Of a stretch of DNA of 64,000 nt, positions 5,179 to 48,240 are shown one piece after another; position 1 is the stretch's first letter, and each line of letters starts with the position of its first letter. Under the pieces are notes generated by a model that was not told the DNA's origin, did not search any database, and saw nothing but the letters and a program-made list of their open reading frames with translations. The position numbers and the translations under genes were made by a program. This DNA comes from Membranipora membranacea (lineage: Eukaryota; Bryozoa; Gymnolaemata; Cheilostomatida; Membraniporidae). Location: assembly GCA_914767715.1 (NCBI GenBank), contig OU612068.1:28830001-28894000 (forward strand), in the 5' to 3' direction.

Positions 5179-5280
5179 CAAATGTAATACATAAAATTCC
5201 TCATACTCACAATCTCTACTAGGATTCACATTACGCGTAACCACATTCATCTAAACTCGTTCACAACAATAGTATGTAAC

Positions 5281-5291
5281 CATTCTCCCTG
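5281..5291. mobile_element. Mini-palindrome insertion, copy 1 (11 bp, half unit)
   Basis: CATTCTCCCTG lies between two perfect copies of ATGTAAC (5274-5280 and 5292-5298). The insert is one terminal C plus the right half of the family palindrome, so the left half is nearly gone. The 7-bp direct repeat is read as a target-site duplication. Confidence 0.65.
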
Positions 5292-5804
5292 ATGTAACAC
5301 CCTACCACTTATATCTTTTTATTCAAGTCATTTTTTGTATCTATGTTAATGTGTATGAGGTCAACAAGTTATTTTTAATTTGCTTTAATTATAAACTTTT
5401 AGAAAACCTCAATAAATAAATAAATAAATAAAAATTAACACTGTGGCGGGAGGTCTGAGTTATCCCACCCAAACAAGGAGGTAGGCAACTCCTACTTGTT
5501 TACATGATATTGTACCAATCAGGAGGCCCAGAATTTTCTCATTGGTGAGTCAGAGTCACATGACTTATCTTTTACAAGTTAAACCAATCAAAATGGCTTT
5601 CTTATTATCATTTGGGAATTCCGGTTACATTTGCGACAGTATTACCCTTTTTGGCAGATGTTAAACACCACAAAATTTAAAAACCTGAATTGTGTTATTT
5701 GTAGAAATTGGCTGAAAATTGCATAAATACCTACCAAGGAAAGCATAGTTACACCACATAAAAATTCAGAGAGGAAGACATCCATGTAAAACATCTCTAT
5801 GACT

Positions 5805-8800
5805 ATGGCTGACTCAATGCAGATGATTGTTGTCTTAGTTTCAGAGGGTAAGAACAGTGAACAACAAAATATATGTATTGGATCAATTATTAATAATTTA
5901 ATTAAATGGTATAAATTCCAAATACAGTAACAATGCAATGTGTGTTCTTTGCGTCAACTGACACCAAGTTAGCCTGTCTTGGCAATCTTTCACAAGACAG
6001 GGTATCACTATCATGGGCTCAAAGGCAGGCCTCAATTATTAGACAAGGATTAAGTTAACAACAAGCATCATTTTTCCAGTATTATAATATTATTATATTA
6101 ATATATTATTATACCATCCAATCGTCATCATCATGGCAGGGCAATTGGGCCCAGAACATGTACCATTATTTGACCAATCCATCAGAAATAAGGAAGTACG
6201 TCAATGACTAGGCTATGATATTAGTTATTATGTACTGCGCTTCTTTCACTACGGACTGTAGATAGATTTAACACGGTTAGTATGTGCTTTTGCCACAGGG
6301 CGAAGTTTTCCTAGACGTAAATCATATGAGCTGGTGTTTGAGGCAAGATTTGATGGTGAACTCTTAACTACTGATGGAGTTACACATTCAGAGAATCCGG
6401 AGATAACTCAGGAGCTGGCATGGCAAATCAGTAAGAAGAGCCTACAACAGCACAAGCTGCAGAGAACTCCTATCAAGATACTATGTTACGCTGTGGATAC
6501 TCGGTCATCAGTTAAAGAACAGATTGGTTATATTATACTCGACCTCAGATCCGCTCCTGAGAAACCGGTAGGGCCTACTATTATATATATATATATATAT
6601 ATTCCATATTTATTCTGGAGCGGATAAAGTTATCCTGAAACAATATAATGTTTGAATTGTCATGAAGGCCTATTATGATACTCTGCTCCCTTCATATGAG
6701 CAGGATAGGCCTATTGTGTTAATAGCATTCAGATAAGAGGAAAAGGAGATATGAAGTTGAGAAGTGAGTCACATTATTGTCCATGTTTTTCATACATTAT
6801 TATTTACCAGAAACTCTTTTTTTTTCTCTGTAGGTGAAGAAATGGTACCAAGTCTTGAATACAAAGTACAAAAAGTCCAAGCCTCATCTGAAGGTAGCAC
6901 TCTACCTGGAGCCTCTTAGTGATCCAGCATGGAACGATCAGATGTCTAAAATTAGTGACAGAAGTAAGTAATTACTGTGACTAACTCTACTGGTACACAT
7001 TACAATGTCACTGAGGAGTCCTTGTTAGTCATGCTCTCTGATCAGAGTTACTGAACTCACTCACCATCACAATATATATGATATGCCAGATATTTTGGCT
7101 ATCCTTAGTCCACGCGAGTCAAATATTCTAAAGTTGCTGCATAAGCGCTGCATTTTCTTAGTCTCGCCTTACACACATTCATCATGTCCAGTAACACCTA
7201 GCGATGATCCTGTTTTTGTCTGTAATTGGTGCAGGTAGAGGTAATGATGTATCTCTCATAGATATATCTCAGCTAAAACCAGAACTAAACGATACAGACG
7301 GAGTATTTCAGCTGGGACCTGTAGACAGGTGTAAAGATATATATGTCATGTCTGTCACTGTGGCGTTCGCTTCTAATCTAACCAGTGTAAGTTTGATCCT
7401 GTTATTTGAAGCCTGTCTCTAGACAGCCTTTCAATGTTGTCACGTCGTAATTTCTCTTCTCATGTTTTGCATATCAAGGGATATAACTCTAAACTACTAG
7501 CGAGACTGTACAAAATCGATGAATTGGAAATGTGCTTCAAACAATGAGATCTCCAGTAACATTCGCATAGAGTTGAGTATATTATTTATGATTCTCAGTT
7601 GTCGATTATTGAGTCAGTCTTTAGAATGCCATCTTACTGGTGTGTGATTATAATACTATATATTTTGTATTATACATTTCTTTTAGCTCCTGCCAAATAG
7701 TAACCGCAATATAACGATAGATAACGAAGGATTTTACTTCTTCTACACATTACTGAACAATGAGGTGATCACTGAGAAGTTTTTAGATATATTAGATCCT
7801 AATCTGACAGCTGAGAGAGTATCCATCAGAATAAGTACAAGTTTATCTGTACTCAGGCATTATCTAACAACTCTACCAGCCCTACAGGTAAAGATTTTAT
7901 AACGTACATGTTTATATCTGCTTGTGCTAATCAGACAAACTCATCATTAGATTACTATATTGTGGGGAGGATCAATACTGTATGTTGGCAAATGAAAAGT
8001 AATTTCCATGCACGATCCGCTTTCATACGTCGATCGGTGATGTATTTTATAGATAAATGGCGACCCTCCACCAAACCAAGTCATCACAAAATTGATATGT
8101 GATGCGTTTGTATATTGTTTATTTTAGGTACACTTGTGTACAGGGAATACATCATTAGGTCACGCTGAGATCAGTCTTAGCTCACTCCTAACACAAGTGG
8201 ATGAGCTGATTAACCCGTCTCTAATGGAGGGCGCTTTTCAGGTAATTCTACCATTATATCTAGTGATCTGTGATATAGTCATCTTGTTTCAGCACCTGTG
8301 TCTCAGAGGAGGGAACATGGGAACTTTGGCATCCTTTGGAATGCCTCTGAATATTTTCCTACTGTATATTCTAATTTTAAAGTGAATAATATTAACCTCT
8401 CATTCTCTCAATGTAGTAGAATGTTCCTCACTATCAGTCACTGTATATATTATGCTTAGTCTGGAGTGTCTAATTTATCTGCTACTTCACTGACATCACA
8501 AACATCTCCTGGCTCGTTTCACTTTTAATAACCCTATGTTAATAAACTGAGCAGCAACCATAGCTCTGGGTCATCAGCATTATCTGATGGATGACTATTA
8601 CGTACATGTTTTGTGGTTTGCATTCATCAGCTCTTTTTTTCTCTTATTTCAGTTGCACGCACCCGCAAGAGCCAAGATGGATGACCATAGGTCCCCAGCA
8701 GCCAATGAGGAAAAACCTGTGGTGGGTGTGTCCATCAATCTTAGAAGAGAGACTCCGCCCACTGTACAAGCAGCGGCTGTAGATAGTGGGGCGTGTGTGA

Positions 8801-11800
8801 CTGAGCCCAATAAACAAGTCGGCCACTCAGCTGATCCTAAGTCTAATCAAAAGACTGCGGACACTGATGATGATTATAGTAATACATTTGAGACAGAACA
8901 AAGCTCAACACACAGCCCTCCACCAAAAACTCACAAACGAGGTAATAGGTACTCTCTTTTTGTTCATCATGTAGCGAGGCAAACTCTGACATAATGAAGG
9001 CTCTCAACCAAGTTTACCATAACACAGCTACAGAGCTACATATAGATCATGTTTTAGCTCAAAAATGTCAGATTCTGATGTGTTATGTTCAAAAAATGCA
9101 ACAACGGTTGGTCGTTTGAAAACTCTGTCTCCCATTACACATATCTGTTATAAATTTATGTTGTGTACTTATCAGGCATCAAAGGGTAGCCTATGATATA
9201 TATAAGATATTATGACTGAGTCTATTGAGTGCTTGTATTTTAGAGCGATCTGCAGGACAAGATAAGAAAATATTGAGCCCCAATAAAAGAGCAGCCAGTC
9301 CCTCTAGTCTGAGTGTAACAACAGAACATACACAAAACAGCAGTGTACAACCTCATCATTATGAGTTTACTCTACAACTCAAAACTATCTCTAATATCAA
9401 CACAGATCACCATATATCTATATATCTCAGGTACTGTAATAATATTACATGTAAGTGTATGATAGTCTCACCCAACAAAAACTTTGTCCACACTGATAGC
9501 ATTTTTGCTCTAATATCTTGACGAGAGTGAGATGATTAGACATCTGTGGTGTATGACCTACAAAGAAATTCTGAAGTTGGGTGTTGTCATGTAATTTATT
9601 ATCTATCCAGGTACAGATATACAGAGTTTGGAAGTGCTGCGCCCTTCACCACACACCCAGCTATAGAAGTAAGGAGAGATTGTGAATACAAGCTCTCTAA
9701 TTCATTATGTACCATGGATTTCTCTATGTCTATGACTGCGCTGAAGAACACTATATCACAGTGAGTGCACAGTGTCTACTACCCTATTAATTTGGAAGAT
9801 CATTGTTCACATATTGTCACATAGGCCAACAAGGTTGAAGAATCTGCCTGCTTAATTTAATCTGACCAAATAAGTATTTATAATATGCAATAAGGTAGAG
9901 CTGATATATCCATAGAGCTTCCAACTTGTCCAAACTACATATTTTTTTGCCAAAGATGCCTAGCCAATTGGTCAAATCCTAGCTGGCTCATATCCTGCCT
10001 GTTTATATAGTTAAAGGGACAGTGGAAGTCTTTGGCTTAGTAAACTTTGCTATAGGGCTATTTGTACATTGAGAGGGGTATTCGTGCCACATTTCGGTGA
10101 ATGACGTGATAACATATATCACTATAACTAATCGATTAAACAAGAACAGATAACCGTTATGATTGTTGAATCGAGTAACATCATGTCTTTACTCAGGAAG
10201 CCATTTGAAGTTGAACTATGGCAGTATGATACCATGGCTGGTAATAAGCTACTGGGTAGTGCTGTAATACCTCTGGCTGAGTTATTCACATCTAACTACA
10301 CCAATATACAGGTAAATATAATCACTAAGAGTCGACACTGTCAACTCACCGCTTTAAGTCACTGGTTTGAGTCAATACTAAGTAACATACACCCGTAGGG
10401 TGTTGTTGTAAGCGGAATGCCAGTCAAAGTATCTACACCTGTTTCTCACTCAATTCAGTTATTTTTATACTATTGAGGGTTTTTCTCTTGCAAAAGAAGA
10501 TGGGAAGACCTGCTCCCCAGTCTCTGGAACTCTTACTAAAATCATCACCTGAGTGTTCAATACAGACCACCAAGTGTTGTGATTCTGGTTTTGCTGTATA
10601 TACATGATTATGCCGTGGTGATGTTGTATCTTAATTTTCCTTCTTTGTTCAAAGTTACATGGAAAACAAGCTGCTCAGCTGAATAAAACATTATCTGTAC
10701 CAGTCCGGGATAGAGACAGCAGGTAGGGCACTACTCTCATACATTCTGCGCATGCTCAGCTCTGGGTATGAGCTGATCTCTGCAAAATTGAGTCTCGGAA
10801 TTCCGAAGCCATCTGATTGGCTACCTGCTATGGTGACATATTCCCCAAAGCGTGCGGATTTGTTATTAATAGTTATCCTCTCTTGTCAATATTAGCTGAT
10901 TTTGATTGACAGTTCATGCAGGGGATATCCCATTTCCCCTTTCCAAAGTTGCAATCAGAACCCAAACTAAACTCATTGTTCTTGCACATGTGCAAATTCC
11001 AGTCACGCATGATGCATACTTAGCCTTACCTGCTTTGTGGTTATGATAGCCTAGTTTATCAGTGATCTACATGCCCAGTCAGATCACGAGAGTCAGTATG
11101 ACTCTCATATAACATATATGCGTGTGTTTACGTGTGCGTGTGGTTATATGCAGTCAGCCAGTTCACTATGAGCCTATCAGTAATAACTTGTTATGATTAA
11201 TAACTGGTAAGAGTTTAAGTTGTCAATGTAACTCTCTAATTCCACTGTGGCTCGGCTTGATTAAAATGATAACATAAAACATTCACCTTTTGTATTGAGA
11301 GCTGATATAAATCTTTCGAGTTCAAAGGGCCAGACTACTTTACAAGTGTTTTGCATCTATCTCAACAAATGTATGTTAAGTTATGATGAATGCATATATT
11401 GTATGTTGACAGTCACATAGCAGTTCTGACATCACATCTGTCGCTGTCAGACTTCGGTGAAGTGCCAGCTAATCTAGTAGTGGAGAGACAGACTACATCT
11501 CAGTCTAATTCTACTGACCATGTAGTAAGGGGGCCATCATCCCCTCCTGACCACACAGCTGAATACAAAGCTGCTCTTGAGCTAGAATTATGGAAAGATG
11601 CTCAAGAAACACTATTTGAGAAGCAGGTGAGTATATGGTAGATGCAAGATGAAGTTACTGTCATGTGTCTCTCGATTATAAGCAGTATGGTCTGTGAGGA
11701 TACACAAAAGTTATTATGTGTACTTTACATTAACAACAGAATATGTACACGACATGTATCTCGTTAACAGGGGTACCACCATAGACTTAAAAACTATTAT

Positions 11801-14800
11801 GTCTATAGTGATACTATCCTGGGTTTTCTGATGTTAAATCAATCTAATAATTCATGCCTGCTTTGTGATTTGCAGACCTAATTGCTTTTTTTTACCTTAG
11901 TTTGCCTTCCTAGACCTTGTATCTAATATCTTGATGTTATGCACTCACAACAGGGAGTAGGTGACAAATTTTCTGCTGACAATATTAATGACTTTGAAGT
12001 TGTTCCCTCTCTGACATTGAAGTACTGAGATCGGACAACTTCCATTATACACTTAGCAGTAGCTCTATGATCAGTGTTTATACTTTTCAGCGTAATCCAG
12101 TGTGGATACCAAAATATATGCTGTACCAGGTATAAATAACAAAGGGTTGTTGTTACACAATTTAAGAATACTTGTGTTAATGTTATGTGTTTGGTATATT
12201 TGGACTGTACCTTCGTACAATAACTTCTGCCTTTGACTAAAGTTCAAGCAGGAGTGTCCAGCCATATGTCAAATGTTAATGAGCCCATTTTATTTCCACA
12301 GTGGAAGGAGAAAGAGGTTAGATTGATAGCCAAACTAACCGACGATTATAAGAGGCGTGATATGGATAGAGAGATTCTCTGTAAGAAGAAAATCTCTGAA
12401 AATAACAACATGCAGCAGGAACTACAGAAGATGATAAATCAGCTCAACAAAAGAGAAAAATCCATCGCTAAAAAAGAGCATGAGGTATAATCTGCAGATA
12501 ATCACAATGCTCTCTTTTTCTCTATATATCGTAATATAGTATACATGGCATGTGTATAGATGGCTGATAGGGACACATAGATCAACGATTAAATGCACAA
12601 TGACTAATAATGATAAAAAGCCATAGATTATCACTCGATGGCTTGCTTGTACAGGATAACTATTTTATATCCAATCCATGTACTCATAACAGTGTAAACT
12701 TATTTTTTGCACTATGGTCATGTAGTAAGTATGTATCAATATTTTAGTTGTCACTCGCCGAGGCTGAACAGAAACACTCATACGATAGAAAACTTCTGGA
12801 TCTGAAGGAAGGTTCTCGTAGATTGGAGCAAGAGTGTGAGCACAGACTAAATCTAGCTCGGTAGGCTCATCATAATACACGAAAACATGCCATCAACGTA
12901 CATTATTACGTTAAATACACCTCATATCAAGATTCAATATGTTTTCTGTGTCTATAATTTGTCGAGCCTTTTCTTACCTCAAACTGACAGTGATATAGTA
13001 TATTTGTTTGCATTTTGTAGTATTCTTTAGATATTGATATGTTAGACCAAACTTTGAGTCTTAGTTAGCACCTGAAGTTTGTGTGTTTGATTACAGGTCT
13101 AGGAACTCAGACTATGAGCAGCAGGTTACACTACTAAAGCAGAAGGTAAAACTAGTCATTCAACATTCAGTCATCTTATTAATTACTTTCTTCATCTAGG
13201 ATGATCCTGTCATTAGCGAATATGGTTAAAACTTCTTTGAATTTTGTTTTATGGGACAAGATTATTGTCATTAAACATTATTAATGTTCTTAACTGTGAT
13301 AGAAGAGGATTAGATGGTCACATAAATGGTGTCAATGTTGTCTTTAGCAGATCCGCACACCCCATAAATTACACACGAAAAGGGCAAAATTTGGTTTTTG
13401 TTAGTAGACGGTTTGTCACATGGCAATTTTAGTAAGCGCCCTGTGCATTAAAAGTGACAAATATAACAACTTCACCCACCCGTCTATAGCAAACACTCAG
13501 AGAACATATTATTCAATCATTGATTGGAGCATTGTCCCCTGTTAAAAGTCATGTCTGTTTTTACGGCCACTGTTTATGACGTCATAGTGTTAAGTGGTAG
13601 TCATCTGCTCTTTGATTATGTATAGATGACTCTATCATATTTTTTCTGAGGTAGGCTGTATATGCGTTTGTCATGTTTGCAGTTAGATGAAGCAGCAGTG
13701 AAATACACTGGCTTAGAGAGAGAATTCAGTCATTACAAGCAACAACAGCATGATAAACCAGAAGTCAAACTGCAGTCAGAAATTAACCTGCTTACTTTGG
13801 AAAAGGTATGTGAGGACAACTCCCATTGTAACTTATATGACACCAAGTACACATAATATATACTTGCCTGAATCAGAGGCATATCCAATCCTTGAAGTGA
13901 CCTTTGATAACCTCTTCACAGGTTATGTTAGCAAATCATTTATTTAAAAGGAATCTATACAAAATAGTATATTTCTATTTACAATTGTACAGCTAGTCAT
14001 AATTTACAATTTTGTACATTGCACTTCACGCTTTGCAGTATCAGATTGATTGTCATTACACTGGCATGTGCAATGTGTGGTCCATATTGTGCTCTCACTC
14101 CTATGCCCACGCTCATCATCGTCTCTCTGATATACAGGCGTGTCTATCACCCCTCCCTGATTCTTAACTCTCTGCACCTGCTGGTCTACAACCACACACA
14201 TTTCTGAGCTATCATTGATGGTCAATGATAAAGCAGCCAAATTGTCACACATAACCTGAGGTGTATTGTCCTTGACAGAGTCAGCGATCTCTTTCCTCTT
14301 CTTTCCCTTATTTCTTTCATGTGTGAGATCAAAGCGAACTCTGTTAGGAGAAGCTGACCTTGACGGGCTCTTCAGTGAGGAGCAGCGCGGTCTGTTCATA
14401 AGCTGATGACGTGTAGGTACAGTAAGCGTGTACACACGAGGACGCGGTGCCACCTCCTCCTCCTCTGCCTTCTCCTCTGACCCCTCTGCTGCTGATGTGT
14501 CAATTATATCTGAATCTGAGATTGTGTCACTCAATGATGAGCTTTTCACTTCACCATTTCTCTCGCTTGTATGCATGTCGATACTTATAGTTTCTTCAGT
14601 CTGTGCTATCACATCTATGTTAATATAGCTTACACAGTAATAATCTTCTTCGACGTTTCTGTTTCCCTCTGGTGATTCACTCAAACTGCCATTTATATTT
14701 AAATCTGGATGAGATTGTTGTTCTATTGATTTGTTTGTATAGAGAGGGTATGTGTTTGTTATAGCACCTGGAATCACTCTGTCGTTGTTTGAGCTTCCAT

Positions 14801-17800
14801 TGCTATTATCCGCTGATATATATTCCGCAGGCTGCTGAGTAGATGCTGTAATACCATTCTCATGAGATGTCTGAAACTATGAGTTTTATGATATAGAATA
14901 TGTACTGAGGTTAATCTCTTTCATGTAGTAGGCATAGTCAAGTCATCAAGAAGCAACACATTGTGTCACTTGTAATTATTTATTCATTTTATGGCATCGA
15001 ATGTCCTGTTGTGCATTAATGACAATGCAATATCTACTGTCAAATCTTACTCTCATTTACCCACTCAAAGATGACACTCAAAGATGACTCAAAGAAAATA
15101 TAATCACAAAAATACTACAACGTACCTTTTGAAGGCCGCCGCTGCTACTAGTTCGTCTGAGTGTGTAAGCACGTGAGAACTCTAAATTATCCCTCCTACT
15201 TTTTCTCTGCCTACCAATGTTTTTGAACACTCTCCTACCATATATGAGAGCATCTACTATGGAGTGTAACATCAGTAGAGTGTCCGCTGTGTATCCGATC
15301 AGTGAGGCTTGTAAGTGAGTCAGAGTGGATAGGAAGTCTGGTCTTATAACTGATATAATATTCATAGCAAGTGTCGGTAACCAGAGAAGAAGAAAGCTGG
15401 TAAATATAAAGAGAGTCGTCCTCACAGCATTTATCTCATTTTTAAGACCTCCAGCCTGTTTGTTAAGTTTACTATTCGATCGTCGGATTGAGCGGATCTT
15501 GTATAGTATGTATGAATACATGGTTGTCATTGTGAGAAGAGAGACAAAGCTTAATGAGTTAGACAGTAACATGGTGATCGATGATCTCAGCTTCTCCTCT
15601 GTATTACCTCGCGTCAGGATGAATGTCTCACGTACAGCGTCAGCGTAGGAGAGATCAGCTGTCGTTCTCGATGCTGCCACTATAAAATCCCCGGCACCAG
15701 CAATAACACTACTCACCCACACCACGATTATAAACATGGTAATAGATCTCTGTGTGGCTATCTCCTTATAGTGAAGAGGCCAGCGTAACGCTATAAAACA
15801 GTCAGCAGCCAAACCGACTAAGTTCAGTATTGTCACATTACCCAGACCCACTATGATAGACCAGATTATCTTATGTACAATTACGTGTATGCTATAGTCC
15901 AGTTGGTCAGCTATATGTTGCATCATAAACGCTGCCCAGCTTGTTGCTGCGACAATAATATCACACATATTCAAGTTCAAAACAAGAGCCATGGATGGCT
16001 TAGTTGCGGACAATCGACGAGTCCAGCGGAAACAGATAACGTTTCCCACAAGAGCGCAGACAGCTAGTAATGACATCACTGTGCCAAATACAGCAAATAT
16101 AGTAACTGTCAGGGTGTCATGATTCCGATCTGACATAGTTTGGTGTTGAGGAATCTATCATTGAAATTCATGAGTAATTTAGTAAATTCACACTGTTAGT
16201 AAAAGATGGTGTGATCGCATAACTTTGTTGCCGATCGCCTAAATATTATTTTTCCCGGCGAGCTGATCGTGTAAAGGTCCAGATTGTTGTCGTTATGATT
16301 GTGAGTGTGCTGATTGTTATTCGGTGGACGATTGTCAGTTGCTGGTTACTGATTGTATAATAGTGTAATGAGTAGTTTAAGCTGACGCTGTCTGGTTCAT
16401 GTTAACACAGTGTTTGTTGTTTATCACTCTCCCGTTTATCTCCTCTCCTATATTAGTCGTCGCGTCATCGGTCCCTTATTATCTGTCTGTAACTCCCATG
16501 TGTAAAAATAAACCTCTGAATAAGTGCTCTCCACTTCTATTCTGAAAATAACAGTAATATTTACAGTCTACTAATTGATCATATGTAGTCTTATATAAAA
16601 TTAACATAATACATCAGTGCTGAAACTGAAAGTAAATACACACAAACCAATGCACTCTGTTTGTCCTTTTCCCAAATGGCATATAATTAATTGTAACAAA
16701 CCATTCTCTCAACAATGAACAGCACCTCCTGAATGCAGTATCTTATGTTCGCAGATTCACGTTAGAAAAGTAGGCTTGTTATTGAGACAATCACTGGAAA
16801 CTGGTTGTTGTATAGTCTTTGATGAGTGCGATGATTTCAGTGTCAGTACTTAAGAGGAGGCGCATGCAATGTTAATTTCCTGGTCTGTCACATATACTAG
16901 AATTTGACCTGTCAGATTTATATGTATGTGACATTGGTTGTAATTAATGTGTAGCTTGGAGAGCACAGATTATCTAGAAGTCATTGGTGTTATTGATAAA
17001 GATACTGTCTGACTTGATGATTCACATCAATGGTAAGTGAGGCACACTGGTGAAGTGGTGTGTTAAATACCCCTTGAATATACCTGCACAGAATAATTAG
17101 GCATGTACGTAATATTTCTATCTGTCTGAGAATTTGAATGGCTGTCATGAAAAGCATGGGTAGTCAAAACAGGCTATTATTAAATTTTGTAGCTCTGATA
17201 TATGTATTTTTGTTTTATTTCGTGGTTGAAACTTAACTCAGATTTCTATAACAAAGACAGTCATGGCTGTTCCCCTCTGCTGACCTCCCCTTGGGTTTTT
17301 TTTAGTTATCGGCTTATAGTGACAGACAAACATGGGATTGTTCAGATGAACATTCAAATATACTGTAAACATGGGACTTATATTTTACATCTATGAGGGA
17401 TTATAATTTGCTGAAAACTGACTGAAATTCTGCCAATGTTCCCAAATGATTTGTGCAGAGAAATTGTGTTTATATTGTTACGAAATAATTAATAATAATT
17501 TAACAGGCTGTGAGCAGGGAACTTTTGGAAATGATTTAAAGGAATTTGCAAATTTCACTTGATGTTTTCCCACAGTGACAACAATCTTAAACCGATTTGC
17601 AAACACATTGCACAAACACATAAGCTCCAGAATATGAAAGGCAAGGCAGATTGGATAGGCAGTGGGTTGTAATGTCCTTCATTGAATCGCATTTCAAACA
17701 GGAGGGAAGTGAAAAAAATTATCTCAGGATCATGTTTGTACAGAAGGACACCTGGTTTGACTGACCTATTTAATTTCTATCTGTTGATGACTCTTCATTC

Positions 17801-20519: not shown

Positions 20520-21780
20520 TTCTGGAATTATTCTCTTTTCTTGTTTGTGAATCTATAAATATTACGATACAAGATTAAAAACTTATTTGCCTCTGTTTTA
20601 CTGATTAGTCGATGAGAAATGCTGCATGATGAGAAAATAATTCCTCGAACTTTCACATCAAAGTGGAAATGTACTTTTTGTTTGACCACATGGATGCGGA
20701 GCAAGCCTGAAGTTAGTGTGACTTGATAGGCTTTGCTGGTTGGGGAGGCTAGCGCAAAGTCTGCCTGAGTCCTGGTTATACTGTAATCAGTAATACAAAT
20801 CAGACTCTGACCTGACAACCCCTTTCTCTGTTGAGATAGCTTGATTATTATTCTAGGTCTTAGTGGATGAATTCTTAGGTGGGGCATGTCCCTAACTCCC
20901 TTTCAAAAACTCAGTATTAAAAACTATAAAATTGCTGGGGTCCTTCCCAAGTATCCTTTCCTGATCATAGAAGCTAAATTTTACGAAGTTTTATAATAGG
21001 GTCAGTGTCAGCATATCTAAAAACCAATTCAACTACTATGGTCTGAAAAGGAGATGGTTTCTACTTCCTTGCCACTTCATGTAGGATGAATACTGCTGAG
21101 CAACCTATTTTCGCAGAGCAGGCTCACTACAGATCCGGTGATCTAGATTTGCTGTTATTTGCATCATAGTAAAACTATTAAATTCCATTCGTAGCATAGG
21201 GAAAAGAAAATTCCCACTTCACAAACAATGTGGAGTTAACACAATTTTATGCATATGTAACATACATGAACTTACTCGGTGACTATTGACTCTTTACTCG
21301 GACAGCTGGTGTTTCACTGAATTTCTTGGTTCATATGCAAGGATCATAGATACACGGCCCACACTGCTTGCAAATCGACTCTGTGATACGAATCTCTCTG
21401 CACCGTAGCGACAGTGCCACAAACTGGCTCACTTGACCTTTTTACATTTATTCTATGGAAGCTAACTTCTACCAAGTGAGAGTGGGATGGCATTTCAGTT
21501 TGGGAACTCAAGCACACTTGGGTTAATCTAAACGCTATGGTGCAAATACAACCAACCTGAACTGATCGGTTGCACATGCACAAAGTGTATAAGGCCCCTA
21601 GTCTAAGTGCTCAGACGGTTGCAATGCGAGTTGGTGCTGGTGGCAATACATTGTCAGACACTCACTTTCGTGGCTATGGCCCCCGGTAAGTTCACAAGGA
21701 GCAACCTTCACAAAAAATGTGTTTCATACATAAACATATAAAATAAATAAATAAAGTGCTTATATGTTTATGGTTTTATA
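20520..21780. other. Intergenic, no gene seen
   Basis: No open frame, splice pair or repeat of note between CEP120 and the LINE relic. Confidence 0.4.
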
Positions 21781-28216: not shown

Positions 28217-31809
<3,593 letters not shown>

Positions 31810-36275: not shown

Positions 36276-36292
36276 CGAATCGATTCTCCCTG
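36276..36292. mobile_element. Mini-palindrome insertion, copy 3 (17 bp, left end shortened)
   Basis: CGAATCGATTCTCCCTG lies between perfect repeats ATCAAAT (36269-36275 and 36293-36299). The inner GAATCGATTC is palindromic. The left end keeps only the first C of CAGGGA, as in copy 1. Confidence 0.65.
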
Positions 36293-36463
36293 ATCAAATT
36301 GAAACCACCCCCTCAGAAAAGGCCTGGGAGATAAACATTAATATGGCTGTATCTGGAGTGACAAGCAGGTAGACTTGCCAATGTCCATGATCAACCAACC
36401 AAGGAGTCCCTCTAACTCCTTGAACCAACCCCTCCTCCCAAAAATAGTAGAGAGTGTTGCGAC

Positions 36464-36477
36464 CAGGGAGAGTCCTG
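36464..36477. mobile_element. Mini-palindrome insertion, copy 4 (14 bp)
   Basis: CAGGGAGAGTCCTG lies between TTGCGAC (36457-36463) and TTGTGAC (36478-36484), which match at 6 of 7 positions. Confidence 0.5.
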
Positions 36478-36575
36478 TTGTGACGACCAAGTTTCCATTC
36501 CCGTACATCTATTAATTATATGATTATCTATCTATGCTACACCTTGTTTACTTGAGTCTTCATCAGTAGAACAAT

Positions 36576-36591
36576 CCCCCCCCCCCCCCCC
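36576..36591. repeat. Poly-C run
   Basis: Sixteen consecutive C on the plus strand. A G-run of 12 lies at 27620-27631. Confidence 0.9.
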
Positions 36592-36680
36592 ACAATATTC
36601 ACACCTCTGGCCTGGGACCTTCAAACAGCGTGTAGGCCTACATCCAGTCCTCAAGTACGCGCCTCGCATGTCACTGGAAC

Positions 36681-36709
36681 CAGGGAGAATGGAATTCCAT
36701 TCTCCCCTG
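36681..36709. mobile_element. Mini-palindrome insertion, copy 5 (29 bp, longest)
   Basis: The insert begins CAGGGAGAATGGAA and ends with its reverse complement, with one extra C in the right arm. It lies between perfect repeats CTGGAAC (36674-36680 and 36710-36716). It gives the longest view of the family terminus, 14 bp. Confidence 0.75.
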
Positions 36710-37417: not shown

Positions 37418-37779
37418 CAGTTTTACAACACCCGTTGCCAGCAACTTGTAAATTGTAATGGGTGATCTGCTCTCCTCACCCTTCTCAACTAATTTAGGAG
37501 TTTGCAAGCACACTTGCGCCTGTGCTGACCCATATTTCAAATAGCTTTGTACTTCTTTGCGGTACCCAATTACTGGGGGAAAAGCATGGATCTACTCTGT
37601 GAGACCGAGTAAGTGAGCTTACCACCCATCTCTTCACCAGCTTCTAGGTAAAGGACACGAAGAAGACGCTTGCTTACAAACTGGGTACAAGACAACAGGA
37701 TGTCTACATGCAAACCATCACCACAAAGGAGTGACCAAACACAATAGTAAATGAAAGCAAGAATGCGACAACTTCCCAT

Positions 37780-38330: not shown

Positions 38331-38728
38331 AGCTCTAATTTAAGTCTCTATTCGGATCTGTCATCTCTCCTATTTGGTACTTTTTACCCATGCTCCCTGC
38401 TGCAACATAGGAAAAAGGAGCTTAAATTTTGAAAGCCGCATATAATCGGATAAAAATTGTTTTTGATTCAGAATCTGCGCCATTGAAAACTCATAGGGAC
38501 ACAGTTTGGGAAATAATTCTGGTATTTGGATAGTCATTTGAATCAATTTCTGCCTGTTTTATTGACAAATGTAATGGAATTTTTCATGAATTTTGTCACT
38601 AAAGGTGAGATTTATCTGCTTTCAAGCCCTCAATGATTTGGAAACCCTGTCCCTATATCGTGTTCATTGTTTGTCTGAAACAACTGATTACTTTTCGTTA
38701 TAGTAGCTGCCTGTCAGGGAGAGAGGAA

Positions 38729-41700
38729 ATGAAAAGCCCAGGTTCTACATCTGGGTCAGACAGTGAGGATGAACCCTTAGCTAAGGTGCGTTGCTATTAT
38801 TATATGTTTCCGTTTCTGTTATATACTCTTACGATTTTGTGCTTGATGTACTAAAAGACAGCTTCTGCAAAATACCACAGAATGTATCTCAACTCTAACT
38901 CACTGTTTTATTTCAATAATTTCTGGCACATTTGGCTCCTTACAAAAGTCCTCCTGTCAAAAGAAATTGTGACTTTATCCCGAGGAAGTATAATCGATAG
39001 TAAGTGCTGATTATTTCAGATGGTGAGGAGATCAAATGGTCAACAATCCCAATCTAGTGATGGGAGTAACCAAACTCAAACTCAGTCAGCCTCTGGTGTC
39101 AAGTGAGTATAAAGATGGACTCACGCTCACGGCATGTCTAGTTGTCTAATCTACTGAATTAGTCTGATAATCCAGAAAATATACTGAGACAATCCTGTAG
39201 TGTCACTGTCTCTTTTACTTCACCTGTTAGAATGTTAGATTAAAATCACAGAATTGTCTTTGATGACACCCTCCATTGAATAATCCTTCCATAGATATTT
39301 GACCAGTATCTAGAAGTTCTCAACATCTGATAGGTGATAAGATTCCATTGAGTTTTGTTTTGCACCACCGTTTGATCGTCCGTTACAATCAAACATTTAT
39401 CGGAGAAAATACTTTGCCTGCTTTGAAACCTATTAGCCCATTTCTATTTTTTCTGGTTTCTGTCATCCAGGAGCTTTTCACAACAGAATAAGGGATCATT
39501 ATATTTATAGTTATATATTTTTCTATCGTTACCCGCAAAGCAATATACTACAATTTAAGTACTGATTTGTACTCATTGCTCATTTCTCACTGATATGCCC
39601 ATTGTGTCATTTTCCCTTCCAGGTCACTGACAGCCTATGCTCATTTCTTTCATGACACGCAGCAGTCTATTAGAAATAAGAATGCTTCTGCCACATTCGA
39701 CCAAGTTTCTGCAATAGTGATGTCTATGTGGGAAAGTCTTGATGCAAATAGTAAATTAGTAAGTTAATTTATCTATCTATATGTGGTGGTATATATAGTA
39801 TTTAATGATGTCTTTGGGAAAATCATGTCTTAGATCTCTACAACTCCGCCTACACTAATGAAGAGATCATATAGATAATGATATCAGCTCTATATTATCA
39901 GATATATCAGAAACGTCAGGAGGAGGGAAAGGCAAAATTGGAGCAGAGTTTAGATGAGGTACTACCGGAGATGCTCAATTCTATGGGGCAGTCTGGTGAT
40001 ACCAGCCCGCCCCAGGGTGATGCCAGCCCGCCACAGGGAGACACCAGTCCTCAACAGGAAACCTCTGCAGACTCACAGTCACTTTCTCATCCGTATGCCG
40101 ATTCCGATGATGTGTCATTCTCAGATCCTCAGGTAATATCTGTAAAATGTTTTGATTTTGATTTTTGAGCTGGAATAGACGCAGTGGTGTCTGAGCATTT
40201 GAAGCGTTCTGCAATGTTACATGCACTTAGTGTCAGTGGTTTTTGTTTTTTATGATCAGATAATGGATACTGATACGAGTGTGAGACCAGCCAGTGAACA
40301 GAATACTACAAACGTACATGTAGACTCACTAACTGGCTCAGCCAATCAGCAGGCACCTCATACTTCTGTTAATACCGCCTCTCATAGCGGTCTGATGGCT
40401 GAGAGATCAAACTCAGCACATAGTATAATAAAACCTTCTCTTATACAGCTGACAAACACTAACAAGCCTATAATAGTACCTGTCATATCTCACCAAACTC
40501 CTCATACAACACAAAGTCGTCTCCCCTGTAAGGTCAGTGTAATCTACACACACTCAATATTATCATGTACATTTGTTTGTTCGTCTGTCGCTACATCCTT
40601 CTGTACGTCCGGATGTCTACATGCTTCATTATAGATGGAGAATATAACTCCAGTTCTCATCAGGGAGTTTCCAACTAACTCCCTGCTCTCATTACAAATA
40701 ATAATGATAATAAATCTGTCTGACTAGAGTTTTCTGTTTATGAATGAAGGTACTATACCTCTCCATCAATCCGTTTTTATTAGCAGGGAGTTTAGGATAT
40801 ATGTCGTATGTCCCAACCTCTTTGGTTTGTGTAGCCCCCAATATTATTGCACAGTTATACTATGATTAACAGGTGATTTCATTGGATGCTTCTAATAAAA
40901 TCAAAGTGATAACGACAGCACCAGATAATAGCTCTACTCCCTCTTCTAATATTGTGAACAAGAGAGGATTGACTATAGTGAACAATAAAGCTACAATTAT
41001 ATCACAACCAGTTACTGGGCTAACTCAGTCTGCTGCAGGAGTATCACAGAGTAACCCCTCTACTCGCGCCCCTGTCAAATTCATCATCACCACTGATCAG
41101 GTAAGCAAGGAAAATGAAAATCAGAAGCCAAAGCTGAGCTAGACTGAAAGCTTCCGTTGTATAATGAGTGTAAGATAGGTGTTGACGTGTTACACAGCAG
41201 TATAAGCTCGTCGATCTTTTTTGAGCCTAAGCTTATGATTTCTGATTTGGTATGATTGATACTTACAGGCAGTAAAGTCAGATACAGCTCAGGATACGTC
41301 TAACCCATCTTCAGTTAAAGTTATCACATTGGTCAGCTCTAATCAGAATAAAGCTGGGATAGCCTCAGCTGCAGGCTCAGACTCTCTATCACCACAGCCC
41401 ATAATAAACACAACAAATACACAACAGCAGATTTCCCCTGATTATCTGACTGCTACATCTAATAAACCTCAACTAGTAGTAACCTCAGCACTTATAACAG
41501 ACATAGAACAACCATCTCCAGCTGCAACTACTCCCCAATCTCATATAATAGAGCCGGAGAAACCGACTCACAGAGCAAGTGAATCTCCATCACCTATTGA
41601 ACAGGTAAAATGTTACCTCCTATTGAATAAATTGTCTATGTGAGGACTTTCATTAAGTGGATGTATTGCATTGCTTTGCAAATGTCTTGAAACAGAACCA

Positions 41701-42796
41701 AGTTAAAATTATTATTGTTTTTATAGGGTAAGAAATGTACTCTTAGCGGCTGCAGTAACCCACCAATCAAACACAAGAAGTGGGACGAAGATTTTTGCTC
41801 CTCAAAATGTGTGGTTGAGCACACCAGGTGAGTTAGTTACCTCACTACAAACAATTTCCAACTGCTCTCCTGTAGTTGTACTCTCTCCACTGGGGTACTT
41901 TTTATTATTTATTCTATGTGTTAAACCAGGGTGAATGTAACATTCTCCCTGGTTTAACACACAAAACGCGGCGTAAGAAGAAAGTGGCAAAATGGCTTAT
42001 CTGGTATCTACTGTATGTAATAAAAATCTTGCAGATTCAGCATCCCCATTGCATGACTTTTTGAACCCCCATTTAACTTTTCTGCTGAAAGTAACACATG
42101 TTCCATGGTTATCATAATGAGAGCAACAATTTTGAAAAGAAAGGAAATTACACACAAAACTTATAAAATATGGTATTTCTCGAACTCTCAATAATTTGTT
42201 TACAATACGTGCAGAAATTGCTATCAATGACTATTCAAATATCAAATTTCCCAAACCATGTCCCCACGAGTTTTCAATTGCGTAAATAGATGCTGAATCT
42301 GAAAGAATTTATAGCATATGGGTAGACAGTTCCCAAAATTAAGTTATTTAGAAGCCATTTTCAATAGCTTGTGCAGAACCCAAACAGAGAGATATCAACT
42401 TCCGTAGAGCAGTTAGGAAAACAGCCTATGAGATTATAGTCAGTAGTTTTTAAATACTATCGTATCATGTTGTATTTTCAGAATACATCTAGATGCCTTT
42501 CATAACCTCGAAAATATGCAACATGACCATCATTATCACATTAACGTCACAATCATGAAAATAATTCACTCTCTAATGTGAATTTTCCATTTATTTAAAT
42601 CTTGGCAATTTTTCTTTGGGTCAAAACATAAAAAATGCCAGTTGAATTATTAAAAATACACTAGTGCATAATCATTTGAGCAAACTAGGGTAATGTGATG
42701 TCAGCAGCTCATCAGTTGTCATCAAGTGTTATATACTTTTGCAGGCAATCCTTTCAAGCGTGGGTGGCGAGACGAAAAGGCCAGACTTTATCTTAG
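38729..42796 (+). CDS. TOX4: TOX4-like HMG-box protein
   Basis: Nine exons, 38729-38785, 39020-39102, 39623-39758, 39902-40132, 40260-40532, 40873-41100, 41269-41604, 41727-41827 and 42745-42796, join in frame to 498 aa. Residues about 47-113 form a TOX-type HMG box (SLTAYAHFFHDTQQSIRNKN, ATFDQVSAIVMSMWESL, YQKRQEEGKAKLEQSL). A long Ser/Thr/Gln/Pro-rich middle follows, with three SPPQGD-like repeats at its start. The C terminus has C452, C457, C472, C476 and H480 (KCTLSGCSNPPIKHKKWD, then FCSSKC), ending FQAWVARRKG. This matches the C-terminal zinc-binding end specific to TOX4 among TOX proteins. TOX4 is a nuclear chromatin factor found in PNUTS-PP1 complexes. The basic stretch normally before the box is absent here. 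The start ATG is uncertain: its exon is open to its 5' edge, so an upstream exon may exist. Confidence 0.87.
40661..40685. mobile_element. Mini-palindrome insertion, copy 6 (25 bp)
   Basis: CAGGGAGTT and AACTCCCTG flank a 7-nt loop. The insert lies between TTCTCAT (40654-40660) and CTCTCAT (40686-40692), 6 of 7 matching. It is in a TOX4 intron. Confidence 0.6.
41927..41951. mobile_element. Mini-palindrome insertion, copy 7 (25 bp)
   Basis: CAGGGTGAATGT and ACATTCTCCCTG are reverse complements with one mismatch around a single A. The flanks GTTAAAC (41920-41926) and GTTTAAC (41952-41958) match at 6 of 7 positions and are also inverted relative to each other, so the whole palindrome reads as 45 bp (41917-41961). 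It is in the last TOX4 intron. Confidence 0.6.
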
Positions 42797-43141
42797 CTCA
42801 AGATGAGGGACCTGATATATCATCTGTTAATAGGCTAGATTTCTGTTATGTAAAAATGTCAAGTTTATTGTAGTGTATTTTTTACTTTTTCTATAATACA
42901 GTGCATTTACCATGTTGATTATGTACATATTCTCAATTTACTATACCAATGTTCTAAAACATAAAAATTCAAATACAATGCGTCTAACTACAGCAAACTA
43001 AGCATATGGTTTTCGGATGCACTTTAAGCAGTAAGGCATGAGGTTGACCACTCCGGTTGATAATCCTTCCAGCTGTTGAGATCTGAGAACTCTCCATAAC
43101 ACACTCAATAGTTATAGACTGCTCCGAGATTTGATGTGATA

Positions 43142-44016
43142 TCACACAGCTGTGCCTTCGTCTTCTGATGCAGGTTGACTAGCTTCTGCGGCTCTCAATC
43201 TGTTCCTTCTAGCATTGATCTCAGTCATCGGATGTAACGGGTAAAATCCATTCAAACCTACAGTGTTAAGATAAATACTGAAATAACGTGTTATGAAGTT
43301 TATGTGTAATCGGGTTACAGACAGGATGGCTTGTTACTAACAAGGCAGTCCACTCACCGTTGAGCACAGAATACAAGAACCTAATGTGATCTCCTCACAT
43401 GGTCACAGATCAAATCAAGGTAAAGTCAGTCCATACAATAAGTTTAGGGTAGACTAGTTTTTTGAACGGAGTAGACAACTCTCAAATACACGCATAACAA
43501 CAAACACAAAAATCTAATGATACGAATACTCCACACCACAGGTAATGCGGAAAGTGACATCAATTACTTGAGAACCAAGGTCTACTATTCGATAAGAACA
43601 CCATACATGAGCTTGAGTTGCTTGCCCTGATCCATGAGGGAAACAATCGAGTCAAAGAAAATAAAGAACACTCGGGTCAACAGATACCATTTTTTTTCAT
43701 GTAACATGTTTGTGTAAAAATAAGCCAGCTCTGCTCAGTCATATCTCACCTAACAACGTGGCGACATGTTTGCTTGGCTGAGCTCCTTTCTTTATCCACT
43801 GATGAAGTTTTTCAAAGTTTATGCTGATCATTTTTTCATTGTGAGCGTTTGGCATTGGATCATATGTTCCTATTTGTGCAATCGGAGTAGCGTCCCTAGC
43901 ACGGTATGCCCTATTCACAACAATATGATAGAAGGGTCTGTTGGTGCATCCATGAAGCGACAATCTGATCATCAAAGACTGATTAGCGAATCTTGCCGAT
44001 CTGCCTCCCATCTCAA
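43142..44016 (-). CDS. MRPS16: Mitochondrial ribosomal protein S16
   Basis: Two coding exons, 44016-43750 (ATG at 44011-44009) and 43257-43142, join in phase to 125 aa. The protein is the bS16 family small-subunit component of the mitochondrial ribosome: MIRLSLHGCTNRPFYHIVV, IGTYDPMPNAHNEKMISINF, LHQWIKKGAQPS and, in exon 2, GFYPLHPMTE. Length and block order match animal MRPS16 (human 137 aa). The acceptor TTCTAG sits five bases before the ATG, so an untranslated first exon should lie further right; it was not located. The gene is tail to tail with TOX4, with stops about 345 bp apart. Confidence 0.9.
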
Positions 44017-44019
44017 CTA

Positions 44020-45470
44020 GAAGAAAAAAAAACAATATAGTTTGAACAATTACAGCATGCAGCAATGCATGCTTGCATAATAAATGTCACCTACCAAGAA
44101 ATTTCAATACACCCTGAAGTCCCTAATAATAATTGTTCACGCACACACACCATCACGCTTTACCATGAGCAATCACACCATTGGCATCTATGCCTTATTG
44201 TTGATTGTTAGGCATGACTTCGCGCTAACAAGATGCTTGTTAGTTTTTCACTGTGGATTCTGTTTGGAAAATTCAATTTAATCTGAAATTCAAATGACAA
44301 ACAAAGCCAAAAAATGTAAAAGAGTAGCAAAGGAACCTTTGGGACATATGTACTACACATATTCTGTTCCGAAAGGCAGAACAACTGGATTATTCATTAA
44401 CTGGTTAACTTGCAACAAGTTGACTAACTGTGTAAAAGATGCAACTGCCAACTTATAAAGGATTCAACTCCCGCCGAGGATACAAAACATTATCTATCAG
44501 AGGCAAATACAGAGATAATGTACAACGGATTCACAGATGAAGATTTAAAAGCAAGACATCAAAGTAAGTCTGTATCTGAATCAGATATTTCATCTATCAG
44601 AACTGAAGTGTTCAAAAAATATAATATATGGATGGATGGATACATACGTATGTAAAACCATCCACTTCAAGTGAGGGAACAGAAAAGTTTGAAGCAATCC
44701 TTCAAGGACAATCTTGCCAAATATTATAACCTTCCTGATGGAGAAACAGCTGCATGATGACTCTTTTTCACGGCGATTCAAAAGCTTCCAAAATAGAATA
44801 TCAGATCTTGAGAATTCTATATCAAATATATGTTCAAGTTAGATAACACTACCTTTGCTAGTAAATTAGAATGCTCACAACATTCCGTTCATGACAACAT
44901 TAAGACATTGAGGGAATAATTTGTTCCATTCTATTCGCAAAAAAACAGCGAAATCTTCCTCTTCTATTGATATGCCTTATACTACTGCCTAGAGACGGCG
45001 TCCGGATCTTAACAAACAACCACAACAACCATAAACTCCCAAACAACAATACAAACCCTCAAATGTGTCCAACCAACCCAAGCAACAACCAAAACATGCA
45101 ACTGAATTTAAACCAAAGCGGAATGTAGTCATCAGTATAGAGGAGAAGAACTCGCAAATACACACAAATTTTGATGCAGATGTCATAAGAAGAGAAATTA
45201 ACTCCACTTTATCGCCCAACCATCAGAGAGAAAATATCACCATACAACTTCAGCAAAAACAATCCCTGAATTACGGTACAGTTACATAATGATGACGCTG
45301 CACAGAAGATGGCCCTCAACTGGAAAGAATCCACATTCGGTAAGTCTTCAGCAAGGCTAACCATATCACCTGAAAAGAACGAGAACACTGCGATGCTAAA
45401 AGGAGTGTCACTAGACTGCAACTAGGGGTATGTCATGAGTTCCATCACAAATGAGTACCCTGAATGCTCA
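44020..45470. other. Intergenic, unrecognised possible element remains
   Basis: The MRPS16 5' exon and promoter should be here but cannot be placed. At 45065-45289 an open frame rich in Gln and Asn (NQPKQQPKHATEFKPKRN) with VIRREINSTLS resembles neither a known host gene nor a retroelement ORF clearly enough to name. Confidence 0.3.
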
Positions 45471-45528
45471 TTGTCACATGGCTACTTTTGTTTTGTTTTT
45501 GTTTTGGAAAAAAGTAGCCATGTGACAA
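45471..45528. repeat. Perfect 19-bp inverted repeat
   Basis: TTGTCACATGGCTACTTTT (45471-45489) is the exact reverse complement of 45510-45528, around a 20-nt T/G-rich loop. Confidence 0.9.
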
Positions 45529-46549
45529 AGCTATGATTATTTACGTAGTGGTTGTCAGATCTTGTGTCCAGCGCTCCACTAACTGAGCTGTCCTTCCCTG
45601 GCAACCAATCTTTACTCAACCTGCAAATCTTGTGAGGACACCGCATGCTTTGCTAAGATTGCTAGTGAAGTTAGTTGGCCTAAGGAGTTAACCAAACTCA
45701 TCTATTGGATGGCTCATAACCAATAAATCTAGACCATATATAGAGGTGAAAACATATGCGCTACAACTACTAAGGCACTGTAAATTACGCTTTGAGCGCC
45801 CTAATAGTAGTAGATGTTAATATAGTACTAAGTATATTTTCTTACCACATCCACTGCCAACCCCCCTTCCCCTCTCCCACACAAACTGAGGGAAAACCCC
45901 TATACCTGCCAGGTCACAACTACCACAGTGTAGCGTGCAGAATGATTTACCACTTCATTTTCCGTTACACCCCTGACTGCAGCAGTATGGTTAGTTTTTC
46001 ACTTAACTTTCATTACAAAATAAACTACAGTTGTGAAATACTCTTTACCAGTGGTTCCTACATATCGTAGCAGCAGGTGGATTGTGTATACCCACAAATG
46101 AGTGTAGCGAAAGTAGAGAGCTGAGCCTAACATACACGCGCCCCAGCATGCAATCACATGAATCCAACATGCATTCAGACAAGCACACTTTGCCTGCCAT
46201 TGTACTCCTTTGTTCACCAAACAAAAGGCCTTTTGTTACACAACTTTCATAGGCGCATTGGGGCATATCTCCCTGACATCGACCCCCAGGGCCTATCCAA
46301 CAGGGTCTTTTAGAACTGTACTTTATTTTGTAATGTTGTGGCACCGATTTAATAGTAGAGGACAGAGGTATGAATCAGTATCAGCAAAGTAGTTAGAGAC
46401 TCTAACTCCTAGTCCTTGGCCACGGACAAACAGTGGATGGAGTGAGAATAGGGTGTTCATAGGACTGCCGCAGTTCTATGAGGGTGTTGGTTGCTAGAGA
46501 GAGAGTGGGCAATTGAATGATTAATAGTGACTCTTGGAACATTGAACAC

Positions 46550-46558
46550 TAAGTCTAC
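46550..46558. repeat. Left 9-bp target-site duplication
   Basis: TAAGTCTAC, identical to 61509-61517, directly outside the left terminal inverted repeat. Confidence 0.75.
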
Positions 46559-48240
46559 GGGGTTTGTGAATTTGCGTAATTGCCGTATTACGCGTAATAA
46601 TTTGCGTAATTATATTAGTTTAGAATTTGCGTAATTTTAGGAGTTGTCTTCTATTGTTATGGGTATAGAGTGTACTGAAAAGGAAAAGCAACTCCTTATC
46701 AAGGTCAAAGGGAGGCCATTTCCAAATAGCTTGTGTTTTATCATCCAATAAGTAAGTGAAATGTTGGGGTCATACTGCAGAGTCCTTCTTCATTCCAAAG
46801 TAAACTGAGCTAAATAGGCAAAAGAAAAGGTCAATTTTTCCGTACACCAACTCAAAGACAAATGAGGTGGAAAGAGAGGGAGAGAGCCACATCACTCTAC
46901 TCAGGGAGAATTCTCCCTGCTCTACTGAGACACTCCTTCTACAGGACAGCTCAAACTCAAGATGAATGTGTGTCCATTTACACTGACAGATTTAAGAGAT
47001 TAAGTTATCAAAAATACAGGGAAAATACTGACTTGTTGTTATTGGTAGGTTATTATTATTGCTCACCCAGTTGAGTTCTGTATATAAATATGTATACAGG
47101 CTAGTGTTTTTTTTTGGAATATTGATGTGAAGTGTAGGCTCAGGTACTGAAGTATTATCTCATATATCTGGCTGTGTGGTTATGTGCTTCTTATGTGCTC
47201 TTACCACCCACTGTCTCCCCAAAACATTCACACATAATAATCCAGTCAATAATTCATAGTGACAGTGACTGTTAGTGTAGTGTTACTGTTAGTAAGTATA
47301 GCCTGAGTAGGCCTATTTTCTACCTGAGTCCTAGCTGGCTTGTTCGTACCGGGTGTTACATAGACTGGAATTTGGAAGCACCTGTGCATACTTTAGAGGT
47401 ATGTTTATGATTTTGGATCGCCTTTTAGGACCTAGAAATAACTTGTCAATCTGCGGTACATTCCAAGACCTATCAAGACTCAAGAAGTAGCCTACACTAT
47501 GTAATTTAGCTCAAAAAGTCTATCTACTAGTGCGCAAACCGAGCTGCTCACATACTATTGATTAGACGAGTTGTTTCATATTCTCCCTTGGGAAGAGTGG
47601 AAAGCTAGATCTAATTTTTTCTGTACAGAACGCAGTTCACCTCATACCATGGACGTCATTGATTTCAGCTGTTATTAATCAGGCTGTCATCATTGATATC
47701 TGCGGAAAACAAAGAATTCCAATTATATGCGTCAAATTGAGAGTGTTATGAACAATAATGTACGCTTTGGATTAGTCATAATTTATTGCTTTAGCCATCT
47801 GGAGTTTTGAATCTGTCATAAGTATTGAATCCGCCATAGGCTACTCCGTTTGGAATACATCATAATCAATGAATTCACCCAAGCTCACAATCTTCTTATA
47901 TCTTTGTTCACTTTCAACCCAACCTGGTTGTGTCATCATTTATTGATAGAGAGCGCTTACCTTAGACGAGTAAATATAATCTATAGTTAGTTTTGATGGT
48001 TTGGAGGTGAGTCAATATTTTTAGCTGGCGTGGTAGTTAATGTTATGTTAAGTTATGAGGTAGGGTAAATGTGGGCTAGCCATAAACGACGATACGAAAT
48101 GATAACCTTTCCTCCTGAGTATTTTTTACTCCTCTGGGGAGTTTCATACCATTGGTGTCAAGGAATGCAGCTCACCCGTGTGTCAGATTCTTATCTTGAA
48201 CATATGTGGCAAACAGGGCTTTTCATCTTCCGTCCTCGAT
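46559..48240 (+). repeat. Left terminal inverted repeat
   Basis: Matches the reverse complement of about 59845-61508 with small indels and substitutions; over the stretches I aligned by eye most bases agree. The outer 85 bp carry three TTTGCGTAATT-type motifs and the palindrome ATTACGCGTAAT. It contains mini-palindrome copy 8 at 46902, absent from the right arm. Confidence 0.85.
46902..46919. mobile_element. Mini-palindrome insertion, copy 8 (18 bp) with empty-site partner
   Basis: CAGGGAGAATTCTCCCTG lies between perfect repeats CTCTACT (46895-46901 and 46920-46926). The matching place in the right arm (61147-61153, AGTAGAG on the plus strand) has one copy of the 7-mer and no insert. This is direct evidence that 18 bp plus a 7-bp duplication were gained, or precisely lost, as a unit. 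Confidence 0.85.

Follow-up and report, generated by a model that had tools for sequence, protein, structure and literature searches.

The 64,000-bp stretch of the Membranipora membranacea genome analysed here (contig OU612068.1, positions 28,830,001 to 28,894,000; the window) contains ultra-short inserts that lie between direct repeats. These inserts are very probably footprints left by the excision of cut-and-paste DNA transposons, with the P-element superfamily as the most probable source. Insertion of an element with the terminal inverted repeat (TIR) CAGGGAGAATGGAAGGGGGAGGAG.. generates a 7-bp target duplication, which is observed directly. The transposase would then excise the element by a staggered cut, with one strand severed at the element's end and the second some 17 nt further in; a cut at 17 nt would leave the same 3' tail, CAGGGAGAATGGAAGGG, on both flanks. 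The identical tails may subsequently be joined by microhomology-mediated end joining, with AT on AT giving an 18-mer and an internal TG on a terminal TG giving an 11-mer, and with the remaining joints being blunt, of 1 nt, or carrying filler that would partly be copied from the TIR. The staggered cut and the tail are deduced from the anatomy of the footprints and from Drosophila P; the junctions are seen as such, and the repair enzyme is presumed. The scars are presumably inert, and several further CA..TG families in the genome appear to leave similar ones.

Inserts in the 64-kb window

All eight inserts reported by a sequence-only reading of the window were located at the stated coordinates; their 7-bp repeats are perfect in five cases and match at 6/7 in the other three. 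The window was scanned without a motif, that is, for any terminal dinucleotide, repeats of 5–10 bp and inserts of 10–120 bp, with tandem repeats masked and one mismatch tolerated for repeats of at least 7 bp; 60 Markov shuffles served as control. Inserts of the CA..TG type were found 7 times with 7-bp and 2 times with 8-bp repeats. The shuffle means were 0.08 and 0.03, respectively, and the combined number never exceeded 1 in the 60 shuffles; for the other terminal dinucleotides with 7-bp repeats the scan yielded 5 versus 1.23 in the shuffles. The inserts are thus real and beyond chance. The same scan added families that the sequence-only reading had not listed, namely CAATGAACT.. (4121 and 58645), CATAGRACTGC.. 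(46458, 8-bp repeat) and CAATAACAGGGC.. (56828), as well as a doubtful AT-rich 44-bp insert at 21729. The CAAGGAGT.. insert at 36400–36422 was found by word search and not by the motif-free scan. The footprints of the window are listed below, with the strand where one is assigned.

4121–4146: CAATGAACT-family footprint; duplication TCTCCAC
5281–5291, minus strand: one-sided footprint CAGGGAGAATG (11-mer); duplication ATGTAAC; predicted 2-nt (CA/TG) joint
28415–28432: 18-mer footprint CAGGGAGAATTCTCCCTG; duplication GGTGAGG; predicted AT joint
36276–36292, minus strand: footprint of 17 bp, in which a single 10-nt end (CAGGGAGAAT) is extended palindromically; duplication ATCAAAT
36400–36422: CAAGGAGT-family footprint, missed by the sequence-only reading; duplication AACCAAC
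36464–36477, plus strand: 14-bp footprint; duplication TTGCGAC/TTGTGAC (6/7)
36681–36709: 29-bp footprint, TIR 14 nt + 15 nt (one extra C); duplication CTGGAAC
40661–40685: 25-bp footprint of the CAGGGAGTT subfamily; duplication 6/7
41927–41951: 25-bp footprint; duplication GTTAAAC/GTTTAAC (6/7), the flanks themselves near-palindromic
46458–46480: CATAG-family footprint; 8-bp duplication AGGGTGTT
46902–46919: 18-mer footprint; duplication CTCTACT; the inverted duplicate has an empty site here (see below)
56828–56861: 34-bp footprint-like insert, CAATAACAGGGC..; duplication 6/7
58645–58669: CAATGAACT-family footprint; duplication ATCACAT
60833–60854: CAAGGAGT-type insert present in the second arm of the inverted duplication and absent from the first (next to 47205); imperfect 5–6-bp flanking repeat
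61137–61153, minus strand: empty site CTCTACTGAGACACTCC in the inverted duplicate

Four scars lie within 434 bp at 36276–36709, which suggests a hot spot or local hopping. An unmasked anchor test did not single out CAGGGA (5 perfect inserts; of 1330 control 6-mers 9 scored higher and 1 tied), and is superseded by the masked motif-free scan. Palindromicity did not reach significance when summed across 11 sites of the window (0.123); the position-specific motif of 44 sites, described below, is significant. Rfam gave zero matches in the window at the gathering threshold. No full-length element was recognised in the window, where end pairs with 7-bp repeats numbered 3 versus 2–9 in four shuffles; the excess of end pairs at 4, 6 and 8 bp stems largely from an inverted duplication.

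This inverted duplication (46560–48176 versus 59913–61507) is identical at 1390 of 1513 aligned bases (about 92%) and provides an internal check on insertion. The insert at 46902–46919 sits in one copy, whereas in the other CTCTACT is present once and the insert is missing. The indel between the copies is exactly 25 bp, that is, 7+18. The empty alleles that had been proposed as a check on the inserts are thus represented by one exact case, supplied by the inverted duplicate and not by resequenced individuals. The duplication encloses LINE-like (long interspersed nuclear element) frames and a BEL/Pao-type frame; it may be a palindromic duplication, or its arms may terminate a large element.

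Genome-wide copies and flanking repeats

The window belongs to an assembly of 339,339,785 bp in 18 contigs, in which the 18-mer CAGGGAGAATTCTCCCTG occurs 320 times and its reversed control 0 times. Flanks were read for 24 of the 320 copies: 17 had a perfect 7-bp duplication, 3 had one mismatch and 4 had two or more. By contrast, 72 prokaryote loci with CAGGGAGAAT, 0–30 nt and ATTCTCCCTG included none with a flanking repeat at 6/7 or better. The anticipated genome-wide excess of 7-bp flanking repeats is therefore present in the 24 of 320 copies tested, as opposed to the 72 prokaryote look-alikes. The 18-mer had no match in the viral contigs of public collections. Gapped patterns retrieved sets of 72, 3 and 45 loci from these collections, and the check for duplications covered the set of 72.

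Sixty-four genome stretches were fetched (L121–L184), 24 loci via the 18-mer and 40 via the 14-nt end described below. A motif-free scan of 192,092 bp of these stretches yielded CA..TG hits 31 times with a 7-bp repeat and 7 times with an 8-bp repeat, and three shuffles yielded none; 20 of the 31 are the anchors used for fetching and 11 are not. Other classes were raised as well in the fetched stretches, e.g. TA with 7 bp (8), TC with 9 bp (16) and TT with 10 bp (8). Two-sided sites with 8-nt ends were counted over the whole genome and amounted to 636 at 16–46 bp (reversed control 3) and 25 at 47–76 bp (control 0). Among the first 50 of the 636 short sites listed, 26 were 18 bp long, 47 were at most 34 bp, and none was 39–46 bp. 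In a 254,652-bp sample (the window plus L121–L144), 4 of 11 CAGGGAGAATG words were exact 11-mer scars with perfect duplications; naive scaling gives a few thousand such scars per genome, for sampled stretches that are not random.

Parent elements

The sequence-only reading had considered that the inserts might be stereotyped excision products of a larger transposon, and this option is supported by the finding of a parent with the same TIR. The predicted TIR, CAGGGAGAATGGAA.., continues as GGGGGAGGAGC in the parents, and 7-bp duplications are present. Four elements (L175, 749 bp; L176, 786 bp; L177, 786 bp; L178, 364 bp) have CAGGGAGAATGGAAGGGGGA at both ends, with duplications matching at 7/7, 6/7, 7/7 and 7/7, respectively. 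L175, L176 and L177 are 93–98% identical, and the end common to the parents is at least 20 nt. Given their small size, the parents are presumably non-autonomous. A 3569-bp interval between two ends (C1:3582157-3585725) was rejected as an autonomous element: its flanks mismatch, and one end is a separate footprint.

The 14-nt end CAGGGAGAATGGAA is found at 558 genome ends (reversed control 5) and the exact 24-nt end in 56 copies, nine pairs of which are 749–787 bp apart (L175 and L177 were read, and seven pairs are known by coordinates only). The drop from 558 to 56 agrees with ends that mostly break off within the TIR, with divergence adding to the gap. About ten parents with such ends (the nine pairs and L176) thus stand against 636 short two-sided sites, both counts being blind to diverged ends. 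A target duplication, partial TIRs and a parent with the same TIR, the combination expected of a footprint, are all found in this genome.

Anatomy of the footprints

Fifty-five flanked inserts that carry a CAGGGAGA end, drawn from the window and from L121–L184, were classified. The product frequencies are biased because the loci outside the window were fetched by the 18-mer or the 14-nt end, and in 3 of the 55 rows (L125, L152 and L155) the repeat used lies beyond the obvious right end, so that these boundaries are uncertain. The TIR extends at most 17 nt per side in 50 of the 55, many of which were chosen with an anchor that sets both sides to 10 nt. One-sided products comprise the 11-mer CAGGGAGAATG at five places, each with a perfect duplication, one product of 16 nt and one of 17 nt. 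When the 17-nt tail is compared with its own reverse complement, only two joints of at least 2 nt exist, those of the 18-mer (AT) and of the 11-mer (CA/TG). The two commonest products seen are the 18-mer and the 11-mer, which are the two joints predicted by the model. Twelve inserts were tested for filler: one had none, and 6 of the 11 fillers match TIR words better than 95% of shuffles.

The closest precedent is Drosophila P, in which the cleavage site of the transposase lies 17 nt within the TIR (PMC7776569). In end-joining junctions of the P{wa} construct, two stretches of TIR, neither longer than 17 nt, lie between the copies of the duplication and are linked by microhomology or by inserted letters, which is the arrangement seen here. 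In Table 1 of PMC2895639 a 2-nt AT join accounts for 14 isolates and a join of CAT to the terminal CATG for 3; recurrent classes in both systems include an AT joint of 2 nt and an internal-to-terminal joint. Unlike the present family, Drosophila P has an 8-bp duplication and another TIR, and the P{wa} events were laboratory events in spn-A mutants, whereas here a standing genome-wide record is found.

A second family has the TIR CATAGACTTAATAATAAACC.. and includes a 1015-bp element (L128:2973-3987) with an 8-bp duplication at 7/8. This element is foldback-like, with very long TIRs, and apparently holds a nested CAGGGAGTTTAGG.. element. Hairpin elements with CA..TG ends and perfect 8-bp duplications, classed as miniature inverted-repeat transposable elements (MITEs), lie at L131:2552-2626 (75 bp) and L135:6024-6127 (104 bp). 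At L135:5645-5687 a CAGGGAGA scar is nested in a CAATTG..CATTG insert, each with a perfect 7-bp duplication.

Membership of the P superfamily

Assignment of this TIR family to the P superfamily is strongly suggested. The target duplications are of 7 or 8 bp, and the TIRs start with CA and end with TG, as do the ends of P and Pdre2 (PMC2895639, PMC10983969). The target site is palindromic, with the motif TNA[STBNVAS]TNA over 44 perfect sites; 73 of 88 half-sites have T at duplication position 2 or A at position 6. At an E-value of 0.001 or better the P-element transposase domain PF12017 (Tnp_P_element) has 78 matches in the genome and none in 14 control genomes, and some of the matches lie in frames of 553–762 codons. 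Several of the 78 copies have identical scores and long open frames, which suggests recent activity. Six of 15 listed open frames of the fetched stretches were examined, and no transposase family was found in them. A match at C1:25231775, 2.7 kb from a TIR end, was rejected as a linked transposase, that end being the 39-bp footprint L184.

Among P-superfamily elements, Galileo likewise has 7- or 8-bp duplications and a palindromic target motif; its duplication consensus is GTANTAC, and the motif of P and 1360 is ANAGT..ACTNT (PMC4168063). The outermost letter of the motif is T here and A in Galileo/1360. Galileo TIRs are long, as in the CATAGAC element of L128, whereas the CAGGGA-family parents are 0.75–0.79 kb with short TIRs. 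Zebrafish Pdre2 / THAP9 shares the CA..TG ends and a short TIR but differs in its 8-bp duplication and its TIR sequence, and excision in the reported assays deleted flanking donor DNA (PMC10983969). With MITEs the inserts have in common that they are palindromic and dispersed, with a duplicated target; unlike MITEs, most are only 11–38 bp, offer no room for binding sites and have variable junctions. A MITE is a homogeneous, internally deleted element that transposes, while the 11–29-bp inserts are heterogeneous, in part one-sided and dictated by their joints. The MITE-like members of these families are the 786-bp parents and the 75- and 104-bp hairpins.

Weighing of the explanations

Several observations weigh against P-type excision footprints as drawn here. 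Four of the 24 18-mers are without a duplication at 6/7. Five of the 55 inserts (43, 51, 82, 114 and 115 bp) have more than 17 nt on a side and need interrupted gap repair or internal deletion; the exact 17-nt tail is itself defined by few one-sided products. A 23-mer (L145 and L148) and a 27-mer (L160 and L165) occur twice each with joints of 1 nt or none, and 5 of the 11 fillers are no better than shuffles. For the CATAGAC family the joint model is less selective, permitting 17 joints, and the product CATAGACTTAAGTCTATG predicted from the best of these, TTAA, is present in L139 but totals only 6 in the genome including L139 (control 0). As to the transposase, none was linked to these TIRs in a comparison of the 56 exact 24-nt ends with the PF12017 matches, the nearest being 12.5 kb away, and the 14 control genomes come without a description; animals may be missing from them.

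That the inserts are palindromes arisen by chance, terminators or regulatory sites could be argued from the 72 prokaryote loci with the same motif, but this explanation is refuted by the complete lack of repeats at those loci, by the shuffles and by the empty site, and its probability is practically nil. The sequence-only reading had also considered that a transposase mobilises bare termini, so that the 11–29-bp units would themselves spread as mini-transposons. The 320 identical 18-mers, with unrelated 7-bp duplications in the sampled ones, do resemble one dispersed unit; this mobility is nevertheless very improbable, as the units are heterogeneous and in part one-sided, the two commonest forms are the only joints of at least 2 nt that the parental tails allow, the TIR is common to the short scars and to parents in which it is longer, and 11–29 bp have no room for the transposase-binding sites that P elements carry internal to their TIRs (PMC7776569).

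A non-P superfamily, such as a family with 7-bp duplications that has so far gone unrecognised, could also cut well inside its TIR and leave such footprints; the missing link between a transposase and these TIRs fits this reading. So do the CAGGG ends, which are reminiscent of hAT. hAT elements, however, make 8-bp duplications, whereas the CAGGGAGA family has 7 bp, and they leave letters of the flank and not of the TIR. The 7/8-bp duplications, the CA ends, the target motif and the 78 PF12017 matches all fit P, and a non-P origin is unlikely. Derivation by internal deletion through interrupted gap repair, instead of direct end joining, is quite unlikely for the inserts as a whole. It was the source of most products in wild-type flies in the P{wa} assay (PMC2895639) and would account for the long forms in which at least one side retains more than 17 nt, but it leaves the fall-off beyond about 38 bp and the two commonest joints unexplained. 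The length distribution points to a minor route, which is likely to hold for a minority of long forms only. Direct joining of excision tails of P-type elements is thus the preferred reading.

Scale and significance

The scars number hundreds or more in the genome and far outnumber the surviving transposons. A wider proposal, a little short of probable, is that in this lineage germ-line breaks from P-type excision were repaired mostly by microhomology end joining and not by copying the element back. Scars of several P families would then outnumber elements tens to one and form a dispersed class of perhaps thousands of ultra-short palindromic repeats, including scars inside scars, as a natural in vivo record, on an evolutionary time scale, of which end-joining outcomes were chosen. 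Footprints of P elements are known from laboratory flies. The mechanism is thus already known; the scale is unusual, and the genome-wide record is what is of interest. No genome-wide record of P-type footprints is announced in the titles or abstract openings of the open-licence papers searched. Each family amounts to a repair assay in which the substrate, two identical tails, is known and the outcomes are counted, so that the repair spectrum in the germ line of a non-model animal becomes measurable. In addition, old sites that once held transposons since lost can be mapped, the cut of a transposase can be deduced from sequence via insert length and microhomology rules, and ultra-short palindromes elsewhere can be re-examined as scars, not as regulatory sites or minimal transposons.

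Other features of the window

A 34-bp palindrome, TAGCCTGTATTGACAAG|CTTGTCAAGACAGGCTA, is found at 61575–61626 and also in L167, flanked by a perfect 9-bp duplication. The word TAGCCTGTCTTGACAAG also occurs just inside a CAGGGA-family end in L167, which marks the palindrome as a repeated family of another kind. A Rhodopsin-type G-protein-coupled receptor is encoded at 15078–16154; only 11 proteins turned up in a search with it, including one that matches the receptor at 100% identity. Positions 62683–64000 are occupied by a tandem array with a 61-bp unit (21.6 copies, 100% match), which runs to the end of the window.

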